Origin: Epilithonimonas caeni DSM 17710
GTDB taxonomy: Bacteria > Bacteroidota > Bacteroidia > Flavobacteriales > Weeksellaceae
Reading direction: 5' to 3'
Assembly (NCBI RefSeq): GCF_000426465.1
Contig: NZ_AUFK01000018.1
Coordinates: 1-64,000, forward strand
Length of the DNA: 64,000 nucleotides
Part shown: positions 7,619 to 63,037 of the stretch, piece by piece
How positions within the stretch are numbered: the stretch's first letter is position 1
Layout of the letters: each line of letters begins with the position of its first letter
Translations under genes and position numbers: made by a program
Notes under the pieces: generated by a model
What the model saw: the letters and a program-made list of their open reading frames with translations, nothing else
Told to the model about the DNA's origin: nothing
The model's database searches: none

Positions 7619-8749
7619 TTAGTTATCCAATTGTTTCCATGCTGAGCCATTCCAGCCGAAAAAATGAGAATTTTGGAATATTATAGTTCCGGCTCCTCCT
7701 TGAGGAATAGGAGTAGTTGATCCGTTTACGATGGTATTTGAAATATAGGATGTTGAAATTTTCACAGCTCCGTTTACATCCAGTTTTTCTTTAGGAGTTA
7801 GAGAGTTAATGCCTAAATTGTCTTTAATATAATTATATGTGATTGATGTACCTGTTCCCTCATTATCCTGAAAAATACCATATCTGTTTCCGGACACTGT
7901 TCCGGAAGTATCTGTGGTAAGAATATAAACTCCGTAGGAATTTCCCATAATATTAGCAGTAGGTTGAATGTCCGTATTTAAATATATTCCATAGTTATTG
8001 CCTGAAACTTTTCCACCTGGTCTTGAGTTTACTGAAACACCATAATTATTACCATTTATAGTTGCTGAAGATTTTGGATTCGCAGTAATATCCAGTCCCC
8101 AGTTGTCAAATACCTGAGCAGAAGGATTGGCTTCAACCCAGATTCCACGGTTGTTTCCTGCTAAATTGGCTGTTGCATTTGCTCTTAAATAAATTCCCCT
8201 GGATTCAGCGGGGGTTTCAGTAATGGGGCTTGCATTTACCTCAATAGCATTCCAATTCCCTTCTGCTTTTGTTACATTAAGCTGTACGGACCCTGTAGTA
8301 TTTGTTCCTATGCTCACATTTCCCATCTGATATATGTTCTGGGTATTGGCAGTAGCTTCTGTATTTGTGGCACTATTATACCATGGTTCTACATATGAAG
8401 GGGTAAATTTTATCCAAACAGTTCCATCAAAATAATAGTATCCTAATGTTGTGACATTAATAGTCTTAGGAGTGACATCATCAGTGGTGGCGGTGGTTGT
8501 GTTATTCCCATCTAAAGCCTCAGTGATATATATGATTGCGCCTGTTTGATCTGTAGAATATTTATTGTCTTTCGATTTTAATTCAATTCCTTTCAGTCTG
8601 GGAACTATAATACCTTCCGCCGTAGTACCATCTGTCTTCTTTGCGGTAACATCCAGTGTAGCTTTTGGCTCCGGATTATTGATACCCACTTGTGCAGAAA
8701 CAAAGTAAAATGAAAGGATGGATAATGAGGTTAGAATTTGTTTTTTCAT
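7619..8749 (-). CDS. Secreted QVGIN-type surface protein with tandem beta repeats (copy 1)
   Basis: 376 residues with signal peptide MKKQILTSLSILSFYFVSA, then the QVGINNPEPKATLDV opening found in many flavobacterial exported proteins. Residues ~165-292 contain about seven imperfect 16-19-residue repeats of the pattern (Y/R/W)G(I/V)xxxxxPxxxxxxGNN, suggesting a beta-solenoid. The C-terminal part (LGINSLTPKEKLDVNG, AVKISTSY) resembles the neck of tail-fibre-like proteins, ending in GWNGSAWKQLDN. No type IX C-terminal sorting domain is visible. The first ~60 codons and the upstream region are nearly identical to the inverted paralogue at 10692. Exposure at the surface is inferred; the exact function is unknown. 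Confidence 0.85.
   Translation of the reverse strand: MKKQILTSLSILSFYFVSAQVGINNPEPKATLDVTAKKTDGTTAEGIIVPRLKGIELKSKDNKYSTDQTGAIIYITEALDGNNTTTATTDDVTPKTINVTTLGYYYFDGTVWIKFTPSYVEPWYNSATNTEATANTQNIYQMGNVSIGTNTTGSVQLNVTKAEGNWNAIEVNASPITETPAESRGIYLRANATANLAGNNRGIWVEANPSAQVFDNWGLDITANPKSSATINGNNYGVSVNSRPGGKVSGNNYGIYLNTDIQPTANIMGNSYGVYILTTDTSGTVSGNRYGIFQDNEGTGTSITYNYIKDNLGINSLTPKEKLDVNGAVKISTSYISNTIVNGSTTPIPQGGAGTIIFQNSHFFGWNGSAWKQLDN
7874..8257 (-). repeat. Tandem 16-19-residue repeats within the surface protein
   Basis: Seven degenerate protein repeats, for example RGIYLRANATANLAGNN, RGIWVEANPSAQVFDN, YGVSVNSRPGGKVSGNN and YGIYLNTDIQPTANIMGNS. Each starts with an aromatic or Arg followed by G(I/V) and ends near GN(N/S/R). 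The register suggests one turn of a beta-helix per repeat. Confidence 0.7.
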
Positions 8750-8926: not shown

Positions 8927-10468
8927 CTAGGTCATCCGTTTATCAGATGAGGATAATAATAAAAACTGAGAAGGAGATAAACCCGTAACTTCCTTAAATT
9001 TTGTAGAAAAAGCACTATGAGAAACAAAGCCCGAGTCCTCAGCGAGAAAACTTATCTTGTAATTTCGGTATGTTGGGTTTTCAATTATTTTTTTTGTGAT
9101 ATAGTTAATTCTTAATTCGTTAATGTAGCTGTTGAAATTTTTATTATAATGTTGGTTGATAATTCTGGAAAGATAATTGGAATTGGTATTAAGATGTGAT
9201 GCTAATTTAGGAAGTGACATATCTTTGTCCCGGAACATTTCTTCATTTTCAAACCCATTAAGTTTTTCTAGAATATCTAATTCTAATTGCGTGTTTATCA
9301 ATGTTTGTGTACCCGTTGATAAACCTTCAATAATTACTTCAGTCTGTGTTGGATGCTGAGTATGAAGTTGTTTTACATATTCCTGATAAAGTTTTTTCTG
9401 TTTTTTCAGTTTAAAAAAGTACCAAAAAGTACTGATGATCAATAGTATTCCAAAGATCAATAGCAGATATAGCAGATTTGAAATTTTATTTTCCTTTTCA
9501 GTAATAATTGCGATCTTATCTTTTTTAATTTTATTGACAGCAGTATCAAGTCCCTTTTTATTCTGAGTACTTATTAATTGTTTGTAATGTCTAGCACTAT
9601 CTGCATAAATACCCGCATTTTTTGTATCCTGAAGTTTCAGATAAAGATCTCTCATACTTTCAAATACTTCAGATTTCATTTCTACCGGAGGAAAAAAGGT
9701 GAGTACCATTTTATAGTGGTTTAAAGCCTGAGAATAATTGCCCAGATTTTTCTCTGTTTCTGCCAGACTATGATGTAAATAATTGATATATCTTTGGTTG
9801 GGAGCTATCATACTGGCCTCAACCCCCTTATTCAGATAAAATTTTGCACTGTCAAACATTTTCTTCCCATTGTAGGCTGTCCCAATCGCATCACAGGAAA
9901 ATGCAACAAGATTATTACATTCTTTATTTCTTTTATTATATATTTTTCCGGTATCAACAAGTCTTAGAAATTTTTTATGAACTTTTATTGCTTTATCAAA
10001 TTGATTATTTTCTAAATAGATATTTCCTAAGGTTGCATAGATTCTGTAGGTTATATCTCTTTTCTGAGGGGGGCTCAAATTTTCAGTATATTTTTGAGCT
10101 TGGATAAGATATTCTTCTGCTTCGGAATATAGAGCCATCCGTCCATAAAGTTCACCAGTATTACTGGCAATAATCGCTTTACAGAATAAATCGCTGGATC
10201 TATTTGCAAAATCCTGGGCTTTGATCATATAACTTACTGCCGTTTTTTTATCTCCCTTTTCAATATAGCTATTGGCTAAAAAATCACAGGCATAAGCTTT
10301 AAAACTCTCAGAATGATTCTCTTTTAATAAAGGTAGGGTTAAAGAGATTTTTTCATCAGGATTTTTTAATGAATTTAATTTATTGATGATACTATCTTCT
10401 TTCTTATTGCTTAACTGAGCATTTCCTAAAAAAATAAACAGTAAAAAAAGTAAAAAATAATTTTTCAT
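8927..10468 (-). CDS. Membrane-anchored TPR / AraC-type regulator (copy 1)
   Basis: 513 residues from the ATG at 10468. I prefer this start to a TTG 21 bases upstream because it gives a clean signal peptide (MKNYFLLFLLFIFLGNAQ), and the TTG lies in the promoter. Domains: signal peptide 1-18, helical tetratricopeptide array ~40-300 (CDFLANSYIEKGDKKTAV, YATLGNIYLENNQFDKAI, SLAETEKNLGNYSQALN), one transmembrane helix ~330-352, basic cytoplasmic linker, AraC-type double HTH ~402-505 (LPKLASHLNTNSNYLSRIIN, ISFLAEDSGFVSHSAFSTKF). The topology puts TPRs in the periplasm and DNA binding in the cytoplasm, a one-component transmembrane sensor. It sits between the two inverted surface-protein genes and probably controls them (inference). 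Confidence 0.85.
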   Translation of the reverse strand: MKNYFLLFLLFIFLGNAQLSNKKEDSIINKLNSLKNPDEKISLTLPLLKENHSESFKAYACDFLANSYIEKGDKKTAVSYMIKAQDFANRSSDLFCKAIIASNTGELYGRMALYSEAEEYLIQAQKYTENLSPPQKRDITYRIYATLGNIYLENNQFDKAIKVHKKFLRLVDTGKIYNKRNKECNNLVAFSCDAIGTAYNGKKMFDSAKFYLNKGVEASMIAPNQRYINYLHHSLAETEKNLGNYSQALNHYKMVLTFFPPVEMKSEVFESMRDLYLKLQDTKNAGIYADSARHYKQLISTQNKKGLDTAVNKIKKDKIAIITEKENKISNLLYLLLIFGILLIISTFWYFFKLKKQKKLYQEYVKQLHTQHPTQTEVIIEGLSTGTQTLINTQLELDILEKLNGFENEEMFRDKDMSLPKLASHLNTNSNYLSRIINQHYNKNFNSYINELRINYITKKIIENPTYRNYKISFLAEDSGFVSHSAFSTKFKEVTGLSPSQFLLLSSSDKRMT

Positions 10469-10627: not shown

Positions 10628-10813
10628 TGTTGGAGTTCCTTTGCATCACAAAATTTTTCGAGCAAACACTAACGATTCTAAAAACACATGTATGAAAAAA
10701 CGAATTCTAACCTCATTATCCTTCCTTTCATTTTACTTTGTTTCTGCACAAGTGGGCATCAATAATCCGGAGCCAAAAGCTACACTGGATGTTACCGCAA
10801 AGAAGACAGATGG
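10628..10813 (+). repeat. Right arm of the 186-bp inverted repeat
   Basis: Starts at TGTTGGAGTTCCTTTGCATC and runs through the first ~41 codons of the copy-2 surface gene. It is about 97% identical to the reverse complement of 8628-8813. The arms enclose 1.8 kb that includes the regulator gene. Confidence 0.85.
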
Positions 10814-12116
10814 CACCACTGCAGAGGGAATTATTGCACCAAGATTGACGGCAGATCAGTTATTTTCAAAAAATGATAAATATGCGGCTGATCAGAAAGG
10901 TTCTATTGTTTATGTAACAGAATTAATGAGTAATTCTGACAATCTTATAGACGATACAGAAGATGTAACAGAAATAGGATACTATTATCATGACGGGATA
11001 AAATGGAACTCGATGAGGCAAGAGCCCTGGATGATTTCCGGGACAGGTACCAAGGCAAGTGACAATTTGCAAGATATCTATCAGATGGGAAGTGTTTCTA
11101 TAGGAGATTCCTATGGAGAGGGAAAACTTAGTGTGAAAAATATAGAGGCAGGTAATCTTCCTGGAAATTCTTATGGTATTTTCAACCAGTCCACAACCAA
11201 CAGGCAAGGTCAGAAATATGGAATTTTCAACACAATAACGGATAATTCAACAGCAGGTAGCCCACATTATCTGGCAGGTATATTATCACAGGTTTATGAT
11301 GTTTCTACTACCCAGAAACAAGGTACGGCAGGTGAATTTGAGTATAATTTGAATACCGGCAGAGACAATACTTATGGTTTTAATGGCACACAAACATTCA
11401 TGAATATTACTCCAACAGGAGGAAATATTAATATGAATTACGGTTCATCCGTCTCAGGCAGACTAAATGCCAATGCAACAGGGGGAAATTTACAAACCGC
11501 CGGACTTCGTATTTATGATGGTGAGATTAATGTTAATGTACCATCAGGACGTTCTTTCAGAGCAAATGTAAATACCATAGGTGTAAATTCTATTATAAAG
11601 TTTAATGCAAATGGTGGTACATTATATTCTAGGGATATGGTTGGTAACAACAGTGCCAATCAGCTTACAGGAGCTTCAGGTATCATCAATGTGACTAATC
11701 TTACTTCTTTTTCGGCATCTAATGAAATAATGGGAACAAGTACCAAGAATATTAATGTGGTAAAAGGAATTAATATCAACTTGTATCAGGATGCAGATAG
11801 TGTAGGTAATACAACCATAAATAATGCATATGGTGTTTACATCAATGCCTATAAAACACCAGGTGTAAGTGCAGCTAATGCCTATAATCTATATTCTCAA
11901 GGAGCAGATACTAAAAATTACTTTCAGGGAAGAATTGGTATTGGTCAAATTACTCCTGCAGCTCAATTACATATTGTAAAACAGGCTGCTGATATAACGC
12001 CTGCAGTTATAGAAGGATGTGGCGTATATGCAGACAATACGGAAGCATCTGCTGCAGGTTTGCCTGTTGGAGCGCTCTATCGTACAGCTACGGGGGTACT
12101 AATGATAAGATATTAA
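10692..12116 (+). CDS. Secreted QVGIN-type surface protein (copy 2)
   Basis: 474 residues from the ATG at 10692, chosen because it gives signal peptide MKKRILTSLSFLSFYFVSA and matches the start of copy 1. A longer in-frame start 28 codons upstream would remove the signal peptide from the N-terminus. After QVGINNPEPKATLDV the protein keeps the shared block ending in DIYQMGSVSIG, then diverges into a Gly/Asn/Thr-rich region (GNSYGIFNQSTTNRQGQKYG, GNINMNYGSSVSGRLNANAT) and ends with an adhesin-stalk-like part (GRIGIGQITPAAQLHIVKQ, LYRTATGVLMIRY). Pattern and context suggest an exported surface fibre. No catalytic motif is seen. Probably regulated by the adjacent TPR/AraC protein, because the promoter region is shared with copy 1. 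Confidence 0.82.
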   Translation: MKKRILTSLSFLSFYFVSAQVGINNPEPKATLDVTAKKTDGTTAEGIIAPRLTADQLFSKNDKYAADQKGSIVYVTELMSNSDNLIDDTEDVTEIGYYYHDGIKWNSMRQEPWMISGTGTKASDNLQDIYQMGSVSIGDSYGEGKLSVKNIEAGNLPGNSYGIFNQSTTNRQGQKYGIFNTITDNSTAGSPHYLAGILSQVYDVSTTQKQGTAGEFEYNLNTGRDNTYGFNGTQTFMNITPTGGNINMNYGSSVSGRLNANATGGNLQTAGLRIYDGEINVNVPSGRSFRANVNTIGVNSIIKFNANGGTLYSRDMVGNNSANQLTGASGIINVTNLTSFSASNEIMGTSTKNINVVKGININLYQDADSVGNTTINNAYGVYINAYKTPGVSAANAYNLYSQGADTKNYFQGRIGIGQITPAAQLHIVKQAADITPAVIEGCGVYADNTEASAAGLPVGALYRTATGVLMIRY

Positions 12117-31948: not shown

Positions 31949-32662
31949 TTAATTGGAGATTTTATAAATATAGACATTCACCTTCGCTTGTCCTAGCAAG
32001 TTAATATCTGCTGGTAGCAAACCAGAAGTATTAACCGCAAACGTCAATGTATCTCCGGCATTTAATTGTACTATAGAACTTAACTTAGTAGACGTAATTG
32101 GTAATGAAGCAATATTAATTGTGAGTAAAACCAGCCTGACACCATCAAAGATTTTTTCATCCCATACAGCATTATTTTTCAATATGCCCAATCTCTTGCC
32201 TCCTAACACCTCTAAATTAACTCCTGATGCAAATTGAAATTCATAGTAGACAGAATAGGTTCCTGCCTGTTGTGCTGTATAAACGCCCGTATTAAACAGT
32301 GCTGGGTTTCCTAACTTAGTATCTGCAGATCCCGTAAGGTTAATTCTAGCCCAAGAATTACCAAGTCCCAAATCGATCAGTGACCAAGAGCCGCTTTTTG
32401 AAGCATAATATGCATTAGCATTACCGGTTACCAAAATGTCAGAATTAATTTCTTTAATTTCAAAGTCTCCAGTTGTCGTCGTCTTATCTCTTACCAAAAA
32501 AGTATGGTTGCTACTTACTGAAGGTATATTGGTCACATCCCGAATTTTCAGATTTCCATTGATGTCCAATGTAGCTTTGGGATCAGTTGTATTAATCCCT
32601 ACTTGTGCAAATATGATATTCGATAATAATGAAATCACGAATATGCGAATTCTATTTTCCAT
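31949..32662 (-). CDS. Secreted QVGIN-type protein with C1q-like C-terminal part (locus A)
   Basis: 237 residues. Signal peptide MENRIRIFVISLLSNIIFA, then QVGINTTDPKATLDINGNLK. The C-terminal ~140 residues look like a beta-sandwich of C1q/TNF type: NTGVYTAQQAGTYSVYYEFQ (the typical F/Y-x(3)-G-x-Y strand) and IVQLNAGDTLTFAVN (the late V-x-L-x-x-G-D strand), ending VNVYIYKISN. Such domains trimerise and often bind carbohydrate or protein. This is a weak fold-level guess from pattern. It lies 164 bases downstream of the small lipoprotein on the same strand, in the same order as its counterpart at 59726, so it is presumably an output of the divergent regulator. Confidence 0.78.
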   Translation of the reverse strand: MENRIRIFVISLLSNIIFAQVGINTTDPKATLDINGNLKIRDVTNIPSVSSNHTFLVRDKTTTTGDFEIKEINSDILVTGNANAYYASKSGSWSLIDLGLGNSWARINLTGSADTKLGNPALFNTGVYTAQQAGTYSVYYEFQFASGVNLEVLGGKRLGILKNNAVWDEKIFDGVRLVLLTINIASLPITSTKLSSIVQLNAGDTLTFAVNTSGLLPADINLLGQAKVNVYIYKISN

Positions 32663-32826: not shown

Positions 32827-33048
32827 TTACCATTGGTGTCCATTCTTGGGAGGTGGATCAGCAGGCAATGGTTGGTTTGCGAGATTTAAACTATCTGGAG
32901 CTAGTATGCTATCATTAGTTTTTTGAAAAACAGAACTATTTTCTGACATATTGCTGTTCTCTACTGGAAGGTCAACATCGCTTTCTCTACAAGAGCACAT
33001 TGTGACCATAACTATTAAAATTGAAATTGTTGAGATAATCTTATTCAT
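32827..33048 (-). CDS. Small lipoprotein with C-terminal DPPxxxGxxW motif (locus A)
   Basis: 73 residues. Lipoprotein signal MNKIISTISILIVMVTMCSC with Cys20 as the predicted lipidation site, directly followed by Arg (CRESD). The middle is low-complexity Ser/Asn-rich. The end, NQPLPADPPPKNGHQW, shares DPPxxxGxxW at the very C-terminus with the small lipoprotein of locus B (60738). The two also share SCR at the lipobox and a KTxDS segment, with almost nothing else conserved. Conservation at the extreme C-terminus suggests that the tail is the working part, for example a ligand for the periplasmic TPR domain of the divergent regulator (inference). No named family recognised. Confidence 0.72.
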   Translation of the reverse strand: MNKIISTISILIVMVTMCSCRESDVDLPVENSNMSENSSVFQKTNDSILAPDSLNLANQPLPADPPPKNGHQW

Positions 33049-33139: not shown

Positions 33140-33161
33140 GTGCTTATTTAGGAATAAGCAC
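33140..33161. promoter_or_regulatory. Palindrome between lipoprotein and regulator (locus A)
   Basis: GTGCTTATT-TAGG-AATAAGCAC, a perfect 9-bp inverted repeat with a 4-base spacer, followed by GTATTTA. It lies 92 bases before the lipoprotein start and 170 bases before the regulator start. A matching element occurs at the same place in locus B (61102-61123), with one base pair changed in a compensatory way. Confidence 0.65.
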
Positions 33162-33330: not shown

Positions 33331-35115
33331 ATGAAAAAAGTTTGTTTTTTAATAACATACTTCTTTTTCGGGATATACTATTCTCAAAAAGAAGAGATCA
33401 GTAATTACTACAAGATCAAAAAGAATTACGAAAATTATCCGGAAAATGATATTCGGGCTTTCAAATACCTCAATAATTACATACGTCTTGCAAAGCAAGA
33501 AAACAACAATAAACATCTGACACAAGCCTATGAAGATGCTGTATTTTATTCTTCTTCGGAAAAGCAGAAATTAATGTATGCCGACAGCACGATCATGGCA
33601 AGTCTATTGACCAAGAACAATGATCTGATCAGTGATGCTTATCTTGGGAAAGGAATCATCTATTATTTCAATTATAAAAAATACAAACCCGCACTGGAGG
33701 AATATTTAAAGGCCTATCAATACTCCAAAGACTCGAAGGATGGTTATCTTAAAAATGAGATCCTCTACCATCTTGGAGTTGTGAAAAGTCATCTGGGATA
33801 TTACGATTCTGCATTGGTACACTTTCAAAAAGCGAATAGTTTTTTCTTCAAAAAATTGCAAGAAAAGGCTCACCCCAATATAATATTTAACAACAAAAAA
33901 GGATACTACAACACCTTGCACAGGATAATAGTATGTCAAAGAAATCTGAAAAAATATGATTCTGTTGATTCCCTAATAACAAGAGGTTTGTTGCGAACCA
34001 AGAATGACGAAGATCTTTCCCAGGAATATGGATATTTCTTAAAAGAAAAAGGGATTGAGGAATTTCGGAAGAAGGATTATCAGAATGCATTGGTTTCATT
34101 AAAAAGGTCCTTACCTCCAATTGTGAAGATCAATGATTTTGCATGGGCAACAGTAGATTATTTTTATATTGGCAAGTCATATTTAGCTATCAATAACCCT
34201 CAGAAAGCATTACTCTATTTTCAAAAAGTAGATTCTGTTTTCAACAAACATAATTTTATTCTTCCGGAATTAAGAGAGAACTACGAATTACTTATTCATC
34301 ATTATAAAAATGAAAAAAATAACGCAAATGAATTATATTACACCAAACAACTCCTGAATGCAGACCAGCTTATTTCAAAAGATTTCGCATATCTTTCTTC
34401 AACTATTCACAAAGAGTATGACACAAAAACATTACTTGACGAAAAGGAAAAATTAGAAAAAGTGACTTCCTGGGGAATAAACATCATTGCAGGGCTGATC
34501 ATATTAGCCATTAGTCTTGCAATATGTATTATAATAAGGCTCAAAAACGAGCAGAAAATCAAACTGAACTATCAGATCCTGGAGGAAAAGATCATCAATT
34601 ATTCATATTTACCACCTACACAAGTTATCACAAAAATAAAAGACGAGGACAAATCCGCATTAAATGAAACAATGGTAAACAACATCCTTAAAAAATTGCA
34701 AAGTTTTGAGGAAAAGCACGGTTTTATTGAGTACGGCCTGACCATCAACAAATTAGCACATAAGTTAAATACCAATTCAACCTATCTTTCGCAAATCATC
34801 AATGAGTATAAAGGCGTGAATTTCAACAGATACCTCGGAGAACTTCGCATCAATTATATTACCAATAAGTTATATAATGACAAGGTCTATCTCAATTACA
34901 AAATAGAAACTTTAGCCGAGAAATGCGGTATCGCTTCCAGAACCAATTTTTCCAATCTTTTTATGGAGATCAATGGAATAAGACCCACAGACTTTATCAA
35001 AAAAAGACAACAGGATATGAAAATAAATTGCAGGAATTTTCCAAAATTTAATAAGATTCAGCTTATGTCAAATCAAACCTCATCAAGTCGTCTAAATCTT
35101 TCAAAAGAGGATTGA
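33331..35115 (+). CDS. Membrane-anchored TPR / AraC-type regulator (locus A, copy 2)
   Basis: 594 residues. Signal peptide MKKVCFLITYFFFGIYYSQ, periplasmic TPR-rich helical array ~25-365 (YLGKGIIYYFNYKKYKPALE, YHLGVVKSHLGYYDSALVHF, YFYIGKSYLAINNPQKALLY), one transmembrane helix ~381-403 (WGINIIAGLIILAISLAICI), a coiled linker, then an AraC-type HTH pair ~467-560 (TINKLAHKLNTNSTYLSQII, IETLAEKCGIASRTNFSNLF, and the closing NGIRPTDFIKKR). It is closely similar to the protein at 61265 and more distantly to that at 8927. It is divergent from the small lipoprotein. The last ~35 residues are non-conserved, and the 3' end overlaps the dnaX 3' end on the other strand by 53 bases. Confidence 0.87.
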   Translation: MKKVCFLITYFFFGIYYSQKEEISNYYKIKKNYENYPENDIRAFKYLNNYIRLAKQENNNKHLTQAYEDAVFYSSSEKQKLMYADSTIMASLLTKNNDLISDAYLGKGIIYYFNYKKYKPALEEYLKAYQYSKDSKDGYLKNEILYHLGVVKSHLGYYDSALVHFQKANSFFFKKLQEKAHPNIIFNNKKGYYNTLHRIIVCQRNLKKYDSVDSLITRGLLRTKNDEDLSQEYGYFLKEKGIEEFRKKDYQNALVSLKRSLPPIVKINDFAWATVDYFYIGKSYLAINNPQKALLYFQKVDSVFNKHNFILPELRENYELLIHHYKNEKNNANELYYTKQLLNADQLISKDFAYLSSTIHKEYDTKTLLDEKEKLEKVTSWGINIIAGLIILAISLAICIIIRLKNEQKIKLNYQILEEKIINYSYLPPTQVITKIKDEDKSALNETMVNNILKKLQSFEEKHGFIEYGLTINKLAHKLNTNSTYLSQIINEYKGVNFNRYLGELRINYITNKLYNDKVYLNYKIETLAEKCGIASRTNFSNLFMEINGIRPTDFIKKRQQDMKINCRNFPKFNKIQLMSNQTSSSRLNLSKED

Positions 35116-59725: not shown

Positions 59726-60553
59726 TTATCTTATTTTATAAATTGAAATCTCTGTAGAAATATCTCCCAAAACAGAAAGATCCATACCGCCTGTCACAAT
59801 CCCGAAATTAAGTTTCTCACCCGCTTTCAGGTTATAAATATGATCAATACGGCCTTCTGTTAAAGAAACTTTGGTTGCGATGACCGGAATTGTACCATTT
59901 GCTAATAAAACATGGTCTAATAATGTAGGTACCTTTCCGGCATATGAGGTTCTGGAAATCACCAGACCAGGTTTTGCAGAAGCTGGAATATCTTTGGTCA
60001 GTCCATCTCCGAATCTAAGAGAATAATTAATCATATACAGTCCAGTTTCTGGAACTATATATTGGTTATCCTTTACAAATTCCTGTCCCATCTCTTGTAC
60101 CAATTGGGCGTTGAATTGAAGAATCTTAAAATCAGAACCCAAAAACTCGGTTCCCGAACTTACCAATGATAATCCAGACACTCCCTTTGCGGCAAAAGCA
60201 CTGGGATCACTGAACATTTTTTTCCAAAGCCCTTTCGTCTTATCTGCATGCGTATAATGTGCATCATAAATATAGTAACCAGAACTTGTCATATTCTGAG
60301 TTTTAGGGGACGCAGGTGAAGATAACGGGGCAACAATATGGATAAATGCACCGTTTTGGGGCGAACCATAGAGTTGATCTTTCATTTTCAGTGAGTCTGC
60401 CGTGGTTCGGGGCGGTATAATTCCGTCCGGAATTGTAATTAGTGAAGATTTATGTACCTCTAGATTAGCTAAAGGTTTCTGTGTATTTATTCCAATCTGT
60501 GATTTGATATTGATAAATAACAAACCAAAAATTAAGAAATATATCGTTTTCAT
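59726..60553 (-). CDS. Secreted QIGIN-type protein with C1q-like C-terminal part (locus B)
   Basis: 275 residues. Signal peptide MKTIYFLIFGLLFINIKS, then QIGINTQKPLANLEVHKSSL and PDGIIPPRTTADSLKMKDQL, the same opening block as the surface proteins at 7619 and 10692. Residues ~145-275 show the C1q/TNF-like pattern (YIVPETGLYMINYSLRFGDG, IYNLKAGEKLNFGIVTGG), ending TEISIYKIR. It parallels the locus A protein at 31949 in size, C-terminal pattern and position. Exported; probably surface-exposed. A ligand-binding beta-sandwich is a guess. The small lipoprotein gene lies 184 bases upstream on the same strand. Confidence 0.78.
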   Translation of the reverse strand: MKTIYFLIFGLLFINIKSQIGINTQKPLANLEVHKSSLITIPDGIIPPRTTADSLKMKDQLYGSPQNGAFIHIVAPLSSPASPKTQNMTSSGYYIYDAHYTHADKTKGLWKKMFSDPSAFAAKGVSGLSLVSSGTEFLGSDFKILQFNAQLVQEMGQEFVKDNQYIVPETGLYMINYSLRFGDGLTKDIPASAKPGLVISRTSYAGKVPTLLDHVLLANGTIPVIATKVSLTEGRIDHIYNLKAGEKLNFGIVTGGMDLSVLGDISTEISIYKIR

Positions 60554-60655
60554 AAAATTAGTTTTTTCAGAACGTGAAGCTTATACTGTTTCTCGATCTT
60601 ATTTTATGTTCGTTACCAGTAGTAACACTGAATCGAATGAACCCTACTTTATACT

Positions 60656-60685
60656 CTGCCCCAATTCTCAAAAGAAATGAGGCAG
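60656..60685 (-). promoter_or_regulatory. Hairpin between lipoprotein and surface gene (locus B)
   Basis: CTGCCCCAATT / AAATGAGGCAG (9 of 11 pairs plus wobble), 8-base loop, 52 bases after the lipoprotein stop. No T tract behind it. It could be an attenuator or a message-stabilising hairpin. Confidence 0.4.
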
Positions 60686-60737
60686 ATATAAAATGCAAAT
60701 AATGAATGTTTCTATTAATTATAAGGTTGTCTCTAGA

Positions 60738-60971
60738 CTACCATCTAGTTCCATCTCTCACTGGTGGATCTGGATCTACTTCCGGTGCAGCGGCTGCAGA
60801 AGTTGTAGTATTAGTAGCTGTGCCTACCTGCGTAGAATCGTCTGTTTTTCTAAGATTTTTATTTTGTTGTGTGACACTCTCTTGTAGGTCAGCAGTCTCG
60901 TCTTCTTGTCGGCAAGAAACGAAGCTTGTAGTGATGACAGCAATCGCTAAAATGGAAATAAATTTTTTCAT
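60738..60971 (-). CDS. Small lipoprotein with C-terminal DPPxxxGxxW motif (locus B)
   Basis: 77 residues. Signal MKKFISILAIAVITTSFVSC, with Cys20 lipidated and followed by Arg (CRQED), as in locus A. A polar Gln/Asn/Thr middle with KTDDS, an Ala/Thr-rich linker (TNTTTSAAAA), and the end PEVDPDPPVRDGTRW. Only the signal, SCR, KTxDS and the final DPPxxxGxxW are shared with the lipoprotein at 32827. The gene is divergent from the TPR/AraC regulator, as in locus A. The invariant C-terminus looks like a recognition tail presented in the periplasm or at the surface; binding to the regulator's TPR domain is a hypothesis. Confidence 0.72.
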   Translation of the reverse strand: MKKFISILAIAVITTSFVSCRQEDETADLQESVTQQNKNLRKTDDSTQVGTATNTTTSAAAAPEVDPDPPVRDGTRW

Positions 60972-61039
60972 GATATAAATGATGTTTAATGTTTATTAAA
61001 ATGAGTCGGTTTAAAAAATATTTCATTTGAAATACATCG

Positions 61040-61047
61040 CAAAAGTA
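61040..61047 (-). promoter_or_regulatory. -7 promoter element of the locus B lipoprotein
   Basis: TACTTTTG on the minus strand matches TAnnTTTG, 69 bases before the lipoprotein ATG and 54 bases from the palindrome at 61102. Confidence 0.45.
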
Positions 61048-61101
61048 TGCGCAAAAGACCATTTATAAAAACATATATGGTCTCGATTTGGAAATCTTGA
61101 C

Positions 61102-61123
61102 GTCCTAATTCATAAATAAGGAC
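61102..61123. promoter_or_regulatory. Palindrome between lipoprotein and regulator (locus B)
   Basis: GTCCTAATT-CATA-AATAAGGAC (8 of 9 pairs), followed by ATATTTA. Aligned with locus A (33140-33161), the third pair is C-G here and G-C there, so both arms changed together. This points to selection on the symmetry. Confidence 0.65.
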
Positions 61124-61226
61124 ATATTTAAATTATTGATTTACAACTGATTAAATTTATTATTAACAGTTCACTTGTCATAACGTTTTTTTATTAAAAA
61201 TTTCTCAAACATATTTCATATTTCCG

Positions 61227-61234
61227 TATTTTTG
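61227..61234 (+). promoter_or_regulatory. -7 promoter element of the locus B regulator
   Basis: TATTTTTG matches TAnnTTTG. It would give a transcript start about 24 bases before the ATG at 61265, which supports that start codon over the upstream ones. Confidence 0.5.
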
Positions 61235-61264
61235 AGGACACAAATGATTGAGATAATAATTATA

Positions 61265-63037
61265 ATGAAGAATTTTTTCTTGATCATATTTCTGTTATTT
61301 TCCAGCTATGTTTTTTCAGAAGACACTAGCCCAAAAAGCTATGAGATATTAAGAAAAAAATACAGTAATTTTCCTGAAGATGATGGCCGTGCTTTTCCAT
61401 ATTTAAATTCCTACATCAAAAAGGCAAAAGCAGAAAAAAGAGATCTGGAACTTTTCCAAGGTTACCGTGATGCCGTTTACTATTCCAAATCTTTGGAAAA
61501 AAAATTGAAATATGCGGACAGTTGTCTAGATGCTGCGTATAAATCTTCGAATGATAACAGGATAGCAACGGCCTATGTCTTGAAAGGGAGTGTATACTAC
61601 GCCAATTACAGAAAATACAAACCTGCATTGGATGAATATCTGATGGCATACAAATATTCTAAAGACACTCGGGATCTCTACTTAAAAAACAAAGTTTCTT
61701 ACCATCTTGGCGTTGTCAAAAATTATTTAGGTTACCATGAGGAAGCTTTAGAACTTTTCAAAAATTGCGTATCCTATTTTGAGGCAGAATCCAATGACAA
61801 AACATCACACGAATCTCAAAGGTTCAATAACAAAAAAGGCTACCTTAATAGCTTACATCAGATGGTGATCTGCTACAGCAACCTAAAGGATACAAAAAAA
61901 ACAGACTCCCTTATAGATGTTGGTCTTTTAAAAACCTTTAATGATAAAGATTTTTTATTGGAAAGAAGTTATTTCTTGAAATGCAAAGGACTTTCTGAAT
62001 ACAATAATAACAAATATACCTCTGCCATTGATTACTTGAGCGAATCTCTAAGTTTGATAAAAGATGATTTTGCCTGGATATCTGTAGATTATTTTTACAT
62101 CGGTAAAAGCTATCTTGCCCTCAAAGATGAAGAAAAAGCAATCTCCAATTTCAAAAAAACCGATTCCATCTTTACAAAGCATGATTTTATACTTCCCGAA
62201 CTGAGAGAAAATTATGAATTGCTCATTAATCATTACAAAATAAATAAAGACCACGAAAAGCAACTTTTCTATACAACACAATTATTGAAAGCGGACAGTA
62301 TTATTTCCCGAGACTTTGCCTATCTTTCTTTGAAGATCCACCGCGAATATGATACAAACACGCTTATAGAAGAAAAAGGAAGGCTAGAGACCGCAAATAC
62401 CTGGGGAGGATTCCTGATTGCTGCTTTATTTATTTCAGGAGGCGTCATCGTCTTTATTCTAAACAAGAAGTACAAAAAGGAAAAAGATACGCTTAGCAAA
62501 TATCTTCTTTTGGAAGACAAGATGAAGAATAACAGCTATGTAAGCTCAGAAAATACGGCCACAAGAACTTCGCCTGCCACTATTTTAACCTCTGACTCAC
62601 TGGATGAGAAAAAAACCCAAATTGCGGCAGCTATAAAAAGGGACCTGTTAAGGAAACTGCAATCCTTCGAAGAGAAAAAACAATTTACCCAAAAAGGTCT
62701 TACAATACAAAAGCTTGCCATTCAAATGGATACGAATACAAATTATCTATCCAACGTCATCAATGAGCAAAAAGGAATGAACTTCAATAAGTATCTGGGT
62801 GACTTAAGAATCAGATACATTACGAGACTTATGTTTGAGAAGAGCATCTATCTCAATTATACCATAGATACCTTGGCAAAGGAATGTGGCATTGCGTCTC
62901 GACAAAACTTTTCAGATCTTTTTTATGAGATCAATGGCATCCGTCCTACAGACTTCATCCGAAAAAGGAAAAAAGAGCTCGAAAATAATAACGGCAATAA
63001 TTTTTCTCCCTTAGAAAGACTTCACGGATTGTTATAA
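61265..63037 (+). CDS. Membrane-anchored TPR / AraC-type regulator (locus B, copy 3)
   Basis: 590 residues from the ATG at 61265 (signal peptide MKNFFLIIFLLFSSYVFS); in-frame starts at 61232 and 61244 would sit on or before the predicted transcript start. TPR-type periplasmic array ~25-365 (YVLKGSVYYANYRKYKPALD, YHLGVVKNYLGYHEEALELF, YFYIGKSYLALKDEEKAISN), one membrane helix ~377-398 (WGGFLIAALFISGGVIVFIL), linker, and AraC-type HTH (TIQKLAIQMDTNTNYLSNVI, IDTLAKECGIASRQNFSDLF, NGIRPTDFIRKR). It aligns almost end to end with the locus A regulator, so the two loci are duplicates. It ends 8 bases before the hisS stop on the other strand. Confidence 0.88.
   Translation: MKNFFLIIFLLFSSYVFSEDTSPKSYEILRKKYSNFPEDDGRAFPYLNSYIKKAKAEKRDLELFQGYRDAVYYSKSLEKKLKYADSCLDAAYKSSNDNRIATAYVLKGSVYYANYRKYKPALDEYLMAYKYSKDTRDLYLKNKVSYHLGVVKNYLGYHEEALELFKNCVSYFEAESNDKTSHESQRFNNKKGYLNSLHQMVICYSNLKDTKKTDSLIDVGLLKTFNDKDFLLERSYFLKCKGLSEYNNNKYTSAIDYLSESLSLIKDDFAWISVDYFYIGKSYLALKDEEKAISNFKKTDSIFTKHDFILPELRENYELLINHYKINKDHEKQLFYTTQLLKADSIISRDFAYLSLKIHREYDTNTLIEEKGRLETANTWGGFLIAALFISGGVIVFILNKKYKKEKDTLSKYLLLEDKMKNNSYVSSENTATRTSPATILTSDSLDEKKTQIAAAIKRDLLRKLQSFEEKKQFTQKGLTIQKLAIQMDTNTNYLSNVINEQKGMNFNKYLGDLRIRYITRLMFEKSIYLNYTIDTLAKECGIASRQNFSDLFYEINGIRPTDFIRKRKKELENNNGNNFSPLERLHGLL

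Follow-up and report, generated by a model that had tools for sequence, protein, structure and literature searches.

The window analyzed here, a 64,000-nucleotide stretch of the 4.11-Mb genome of Epilithonimonas caeni DSM 17710 (contig NZ_AUFK01000018.1, positions 1 to 64,000), holds two modules, A and B, in which a regulator predicted to span the membrane is paired with a small, divergently encoded lipoprotein that ends in a short conserved tail. The pairing recurs across the family Weeksellaceae, and purifying selection acts far more strongly on the tail than on the linker that carries it. The reading favored here, to which sequence comparison and structure models lend about an even probability, is that the tail would be the dedicated ligand of a periplasmic tetratricopeptide repeat (TPR) domain of the regulator in a self-regulating one-component switch.

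As a preliminary description of the window had claimed, both modules comprise the same three genes in the same order and orientation, with the regulator on the plus strand and, divergent from it on the minus strand, the small lipoprotein followed by a surface protein with a QxGIN start:

59726 to 60553, minus strand: surface protein B, which starts QIGIN and has a C-terminal part resembling a tumor necrosis factor (TNF)-type jelly roll
60738 to 60971, minus strand: lipoprotein B, 77 amino acids, lipobox VSC, PDPPVRDGTRW at the very C terminus
61265 to 63037, plus strand: regulator B, likely start ATG 61265 (TTG 61232 in the list of open reading frames)
31949 to 32662, minus strand: surface protein A, QVGIN start
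32827 to 33048, minus strand: lipoprotein A, 73 amino acids, ADPPPKNGHQW at the C terminus
33331 to 35115, plus strand: regulator A

The start codons of regulator and lipoprotein lie 283-294 base pairs (bp) apart in the two modules. Identity between the two regulators is 50-51%, B being 97% identical to an E. hungarica protein, and identity between the two surface proteins is 23%; by eye, the lipoproteins have little in common beyond the lipobox and the tail.

Co-occurrence of Regulator and Lipoprotein

With regulator B as query, 71 matches at E <= 1e-60 were found in the 23 genomes of the genus, every genome containing at least one, and among the matches listed for 296 genomes of the family, where up to 4 candidates were scored in each genome, at least 187 genomes and at least 13 of 33 genera are represented. 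Flanking DNA was taken for the 71 genus matches and for 60 picked family matches, 80 named loci were added, and 6 were dropped. The 206 loci, a chosen rather than a random sample, were reduced to 173 by treating those with the same last 200 residues as duplicates. A lipoprotein with the tail occurs at 136 of these 173 (131 recognized by script and 5 variant tails by eye, two of which end in Y in place of W); in each the tail lies at or near the lipoprotein C terminus, and the gene is divergent from the regulator, usually at a distance of ~250-340 bp.

The association also holds in the opposite direction. A DNA pattern for the tail gave 24 hits in the 23 genus genomes, against none for the reversed control, and 22 of these adjoin a regulator. 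Of the remaining two, one (G009:C33) adjoins a truncated regulator matching residues 21-124, and the other (G009:C50) belongs to a lipoprotein gene with module A-type surroundings, whose start is 246 bp from the contig end. When a stricter pattern was applied to 148 family genomes, 13 of its 14 hits lay next to regulators and the last (G035) next to a partial regulator frame (L169).

The third gene is less constant. All 12 of the named B-type loci (L218-L229) have the lipoprotein, and 8 of the 12 have a homologue of the surface protein. The gene after the lipoprotein, sorted at 131 loci by a rough script whose classes also take in distant genes and miss some early-start QVGIN genes, was MauE in 61, QVGIN in 19, a GG-peptide in 1, another gene in 42, and none in 8. 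Given this variation in the following gene, the conserved unit is the regulator with its divergent lipoprotein, and the surface gene is replaceable cargo. The duplicated three-gene layout recognized in the preliminary description is thus real, and a further module exists in the genome, but its core is smaller than was supposed; likewise, of the two partners then proposed for the regulator, the lipoprotein tail is the best candidate, whereas the surface protein is not part of the core.

Counting the query, the same genome contains 19 matches to the regulator, some of which cover only the helix-turn-helix (HTH) region. A third regulator-lipoprotein pair, module C (C6:245454, L020), has a regulator 50% identical to the query, a lipoprotein ending in DPPVKDGQDWKH, and, after the lipoprotein, a MauE gene (PF07291). 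Regulator D (C7:295321, L021; 39% identical) has a MauE-like gene directly divergent from it and no lipoprotein. Beyond these close relatives there are 15 more distant matches, again in part to the HTH region only, one of which is a third regulator in the window.

The Tail and Its Selection

The tail consensus is roughly [DE]PPx[KR]DGxxW. In an alignment of 131 tails, a few of them mis-anchored, counting back from the W, position -7 is P in 123, -5 is K or R in 124, -4 is D or N in 118, and -3 is G in 74. Among 8 equal-length pairs of relatives out of 13, the ratio of nonsynonymous to synonymous divergence (pN/pS) was 0.07 for the 11 residues of the tail (4 nonsynonymous and 16 synonymous differences), whereas the linker gave 0.44 (70.5 and 43.5; Fisher p 0.001). 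Some lipoproteins carry more than one copy of the tail, with two in L200 and L207, three in L266, and degenerate repeats in L269. One genome can hold several modules with different tails, and one tail, PDPPVRDGDNW, is found at 11 loci in several species.

Relatives of the regulator outside the family provide a second view of this motif. An order-level search returned matches in 57 of 296 genomes, 16 of the 57 in a second family, probably Flavobacteriaceae and mostly one Flavobacterium-like genus. Flanks were analyzed for 20 of these second-family regulators (32-38% identity), and at 19 of them a gene for more than 120 amino acids diverges within 450 bp, with a lipobox in 18 of the 19. The encoded proteins are mostly ~230 amino acids long, with a body different from that of the Weeksellaceae lipoproteins, and 16 of the 19 contain [KR]D.{2,3}W (1.9% of shuffled sequences do), usually as KDKDW or KDRDW with a following E or D, close to the C terminus. 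A KD[KR]DW-type DNA pattern gave 14 hits in 12 genomes picked from the 16, with 1 in the control; 12 of the 14 adjoin regulators, and the other two have neither a motif-reading frame of at least 60 amino acids nor a regulator match nearby. Of the hints that the motif itself matters, the strongest is that lipoproteins with different bodies share it; the two lipoprotein types may have a common origin.

Predicted Architecture of the Regulator

The layout given in the preliminary description, with a signal peptide, a periplasmic TPR array, one membrane helix, and an AraC-type HTH, was borne out at the level of prediction by hydropathy, AlphaFold2, and Pfam. In regulator B, hydropathy in a 19-residue window picks out a hydrophobic stretch at the N terminus and a single strong membrane segment at residues 381-399. 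An AlphaFold2 model built from 56 sequences (mean predicted local distance difference test score, pLDDT, of 85) places helical repeats at residues 26-361, a long helix that includes the membrane segment at 364-422, and the HTH at 455-577. The repeats are assigned to the TPR class by weak Pfam hits, and the regulators fall in the AraC/XylS family by their HTH_18/HTH_AraC domain, the HTH_18 score being 33.9 bits in regulator A, just above the cut-off of 33.6, 32.5 in B, just below it, and 53.7 in the third regulator. The predicted topology is therefore an N-terminal signal peptide or anchor, a periplasmic TPR domain, one membrane helix, and a cytoplasmic HTH.

The Foldseek matches of the regulator B model are led by LGN/Pins, a TPR protein in complex with partner peptides. 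NprR and, bound to its pheromone, the Rap protein of phage Phi3T are further matches, all at modest TM-scores of 0.3-0.45 by query length, and a profile search of solved sequences gives AraC-type HTHs and the TPR region of RapF/RapJ. TPR matches of this kind are generic and so are no proof of peptide binding.

A Candidate Operator between the Divergent Genes

A dyad, GTSnnnATTnnnnAATnnnSAC, was found without mismatch in the 280 bp before the regulator at 71 of 131 loci, a set that was not deduplicated, and in 0 of 2620 shuffles; 53 of the 71 loci have a lipoprotein recognized by script and 18 do not. With up to one mismatch the count is 97 of 131, versus 0.19% of shuffles. As the pattern was derived from modules A and B, these are not independent evidence for it. 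Across the whole genome, a stricter form is confined to A and B (the reversed control gives 2 hits per strand), and the window contains two dyad sites where 0.28 would be expected at one mismatch. The sites and the possible promoter boxes, for which we assume a -7 consensus, are as follows:

61080 to 61101: dyad operator 1 of module B, GTCTCGATTTGGAAATCTTGAC
61102 to 61123: dyad operator 2 of module B, abutting operator 1, GTCCTAATTCATAAATAAGGAC
33140 to 33161: dyad operator of module A, GTGCTTATTTAGGAATAAGCAC
61040 to 61047, minus strand: possible -7 box of the lipoprotein B promoter, TACTTTTG; a second match on the same strand starts at 61213
61227 to 61234, plus strand: possible -7 box of the regulator B promoter, TATTTTTG

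The double dyad of module B (44 bp) lies 33-76 bp upstream of the possible lipoprotein -7 box, a position that suits activation of the lipoprotein operon. The dyad would be bound by the regulator of its own module, and the lipoprotein operon may then be activated from it.

A Proposed Ligand-Receptor Switch

In the mechanism favored here, each module would be a self-contained ligand-receptor switch. The regulator would act as a membrane one-component receptor whose AraC-type HTH binds the dyad between the divergent genes, while the tail would dock in the groove of the TPR domain, the linker being a mere tether. Tail binding would switch the operon of lipoprotein plus cargo, producing a feedback loop. 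The proposal draws directly on the two-way co-occurrence, the selection on the tail, the repeated tails, the dyad, and the predicted architecture.

The preferred version is one of same-cell sensing, in which the lipoprotein would normally be flipped to the surface and the regulator would gauge the tail left in the periplasm, thereby reporting export or the state of the envelope. It is preferred because of a partial resemblance between the Bacteroidota surface-export signal and the residues that follow the lipidated Cys. In the excerpted account of PMC5080379, the lipoprotein export signal of Capnocytophaga consists of QKDDE-like residues at +2 to +6, with an optimum of C-X-K-(D/E)2-X. In the 136 lipoproteins, with the Cys chosen by a simple rule, positions +2 to +6 are most often R, Q, D, D, and E; acidic residues occupy +4, +5, and +6 in 37%, 68%, and 44%, and at +3 lysine is unusual, with Q in 47, E in 23, and R in 15.

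Several observations weigh against tail sensing by the TPR domain. The preliminary description held that homologous regulators with no lipoprotein nearby would refute its proposal. In part this is borne out, for beside the 136 loci that have one there are 37 of the 173 that do not. Of these 37, 16 form one group; a MauE-like gene is directly divergent at 7 and QVGIN at 2, 3 have an outer-membrane-protein-like gene, 2 have less than 500 bp of upstream sequence, and the other 7 include one (L197) with a lipoprotein-like frame that lacks the tail. The group of 16 (L157-L161, L165, L167, L172, L238-L240, L243, L244, L248, L250, and L268) is mainly from Chryseobacterium and lies throughout downstream of a gene ending in LGGGWK, which by eye looks like the outer-membrane component of a resistance-nodulation-division (RND) efflux system; many of its loci keep the dyad. 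A DPP[IV]K tail was absent from all 10 genomes searched for it, 9 of which represent this group, the tenth (G107) having no lipoprotein in the 1.5-kb flank; the same search in four lipoprotein-bearing genomes gave one hit each. The regulators of this group must have no such ligand or an unrecognized one.

Nor do the regulators that lack a lipoprotein consistently show many changes at conserved TPR sites. Clade D has changes at 2 of 59 conserved TPR sites, L283/L292 at 4 of 59 as against 9 of 37 in the HTH, and only the clade beside the outer-membrane-protein gene has many, at 12 of 59, in 3 sequences. Since the changes are clear in that one three-sequence clade only, they were not used as support. 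In a partial Mantel analysis of 97 pairs, the tail tracked the HTH given the TPR domain (0.23) more closely than the TPR domain given the HTH (0.06). The tail was not separated between the two domains, and the operator, intended as a positive control, was separated only weakly, so that co-evolution lends no support to TPR binding and was likewise set aside. In the second family, moreover, the spacing of KDxxW falls one residue short of that in KDxxxW, and only 1 of 20 loci has the dyad without mismatch.

Alternative Explanations

The foremost alternative, a serious if somewhat doubtful one, is that the lipoprotein is a mere target of the regulator, with the tail acting elsewhere, for example at the cell surface, and the regulator sensing something else. 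This would explain why regulators persist where the lipoprotein is missing, why co-variation does not point to the TPR domain, and why clade D shows no marked TPR change, and it is in keeping with the partly export-like residues after the Cys. It fits less well with the exchange of cargo (QVGIN, MauE, and others) while lipoprotein and regulator remain paired, or with the reappearance of the KD..W motif in a different lipoprotein body next to the second-family relatives.

Alternatively, the tail could signal between cells as a pheromone. Neighboring cells would read the lipoprotein, or a peptide released from it by cleavage, through their TPR receptors, in a manner like that of the RRNPPA systems but outside the cytoplasm. 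The position of the tail at or near the C terminus, its repetition in some precursors, the presence in one genome of several modules that differ in their tails, and the structural likeness to Rap-Phi3T and NprR, among others, would all agree with such a role. Pheromone types change fast, however, and the occurrence of PDPPVRDGDNW across several species favors a same-cell over an intercellular role; the lipid anchor and the linker also suggest tethering. A pheromone is distinctly unlikely. That the association is only inherited gene order after duplication, with no functional partnership, is very improbable, for although most loci are related paralogues or orthologues, the tail is under selection, the dyad is conserved, and a different lipoprotein occupies the same place in the second family.

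An extension of tail sensing, unlikely as a whole, would see in these modules a Bacteroidota family of tail-peptide ligands and TPR receptors outside the cytoplasm, operating as several parallel channels within a genome, one of them beside mobilization genes. Cells would exchange or monitor short Trp-tail signals, and the family would be a Gram-negative counterpart of RRNPPA with multi-copy precursors.

Cargo and Neighboring Genes

The surface protein B model is weak, with a mean pLDDT of 59.6. Matches to TNF-type jelly rolls cover the C-terminal part of the protein, and there is a weak Pfam hit to BclA_C. A 55-amino-acid protein, CPxSGIWESMGNFKTT...KGxxMPxYCGKKIKWxL, is encoded at 53 of the 173 loci, 49 of the 53 being of the MauE type, and lies ~500 bp upstream of the regulator (e.g. 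L100, L105, and L174). At L094, a 68-amino-acid peptide with a double-glycine-like leader (QLKGGF) is encoded ~833 bp upstream of the regulator, past the lipoprotein gene. No Pfam hit above cut-off was obtained for the lipoproteins, the 55-amino-acid protein, or four second-family lipoproteins, nor any NCBIfam hit above cut-off for the lipoproteins and the 55-amino-acid protein; weak NCBIfam hits to PG1828, BSAP5b, BamM, and AimP fall at the signal-peptide end, far under cut-off, and were rejected. A reading as graspetides or other ribosomally synthesized and post-translationally modified peptides was considered in the light of PMC8939145 and set aside.

Module C (L020:3965-8743, G000:C6) adjoins relaxase (PF03432) and ParA-like genes, and its lipoprotein is identical in sequence to one in Chryseobacterium sp. 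ZHDP1 (L257) and to one in another member of the genus Epilithonimonas (L302, with a truncated regulator); for these reasons the module looks to be carried by a mobile element.

The third regulator of the window (8927-10468) does lie between two QVGIN genes, as first described, at 7619-8749 and 10695-12116, whose N termini are nearly identical. It is, however, a distant paralogue (25-26% identity to A and B), and no lipoprotein is among the open reading frames listed at its ~200-bp gap to the upstream gene. Two other TPR-AraC regulators of the genome have divergent proteins of 202 and 236 amino acids (L025:1755-2363 and L030:6466-7176) that end in RPPPSIS and RPPPSVA, perhaps a second tail type, and whose genes precede QVGIN surface genes. 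Several more distant TPR-AraC paralogues among L022-L031 adjoin secreted proteins with ends resembling type IX sorting tails, which suggests a wider link between TPR-AraC regulators and surface proteins.

Relation to Known Systems

The nearest described principle is that of the co-component systems VtrA/VtrC and ToxR/ToxS, which in the excerpted account of PMC9214523 likewise combine a membrane-spanning DNA-binding regulator with an adjacent gene for an exported partner. A transmembrane DNA-binding regulator is predicted here as well, but the partner gene is divergent rather than in the same operon, the AraC-type HTH is C-terminal and the TPR sensor N-terminal, and the partner is a short-tailed lipoprotein, too short for the lipocalin-like fold of the co-component type to be expected. 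One-component regulators such as CadC and ToxR also unite periplasmic sensing and cytoplasmic DNA binding in one protein, and CadC has a periplasmic TPR-type subdomain (PMC9214523). Unlike CadC, the regulators here have a dedicated lipoprotein gene. The domain order of CadC is the reverse of that of the present regulators, and its HTH belongs to a different family. RcsF/IgaA-type surveillance by a surface lipoprotein is alike in that lipoprotein localization could be the signal; its output protein differs.

The comparison with Gram-positive RRNPP systems made in the preliminary description stands as an analogy, RRNPPA being the nearest functional one. A TPR domain and a small exported protein encoded nearby, with its key segment at the C terminus, are common to both. 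As summarized in the excerpted parts of PMC9765709, RRNPPA receptors are cytoplasmic proteins of Firmicutes, with an N-terminal HTH where they bind DNA (or a three-helix bundle, 3HB) and a C-terminal TPR domain. The present regulators, from Bacteroidota, differ in a TPR domain predicted to be periplasmic, a C-terminal AraC HTH, and a lipidated partner, and a periplasmic receptor would not need the re-import through an oligopeptide permease on which RRNPPA signaling relies. Because receptor location and HTH placement differ, the system is not an RRNPPA member. In keeping with the earlier statement that no system of this layout was known, searches of the open-license literature aimed at such a system found no description of the regulator-lipoprotein pair, subscription papers lying largely outside their reach, and no described signal for TPR-membrane-AraC regulators was found in the same literature.

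The modules thus mark out a subset of TPR-membrane-AraC regulators whose probable ligand is encoded beside them. Both the tail peptide and the candidate operator are defined, so that the sensing mechanism is directly testable. If the tail binds, the modules would constitute a minimal portable set of ligand, receptor, and operator in the Bacteroidota and, with binding confirmed, a new kind of built-in signaling pair in environmental bacteria.

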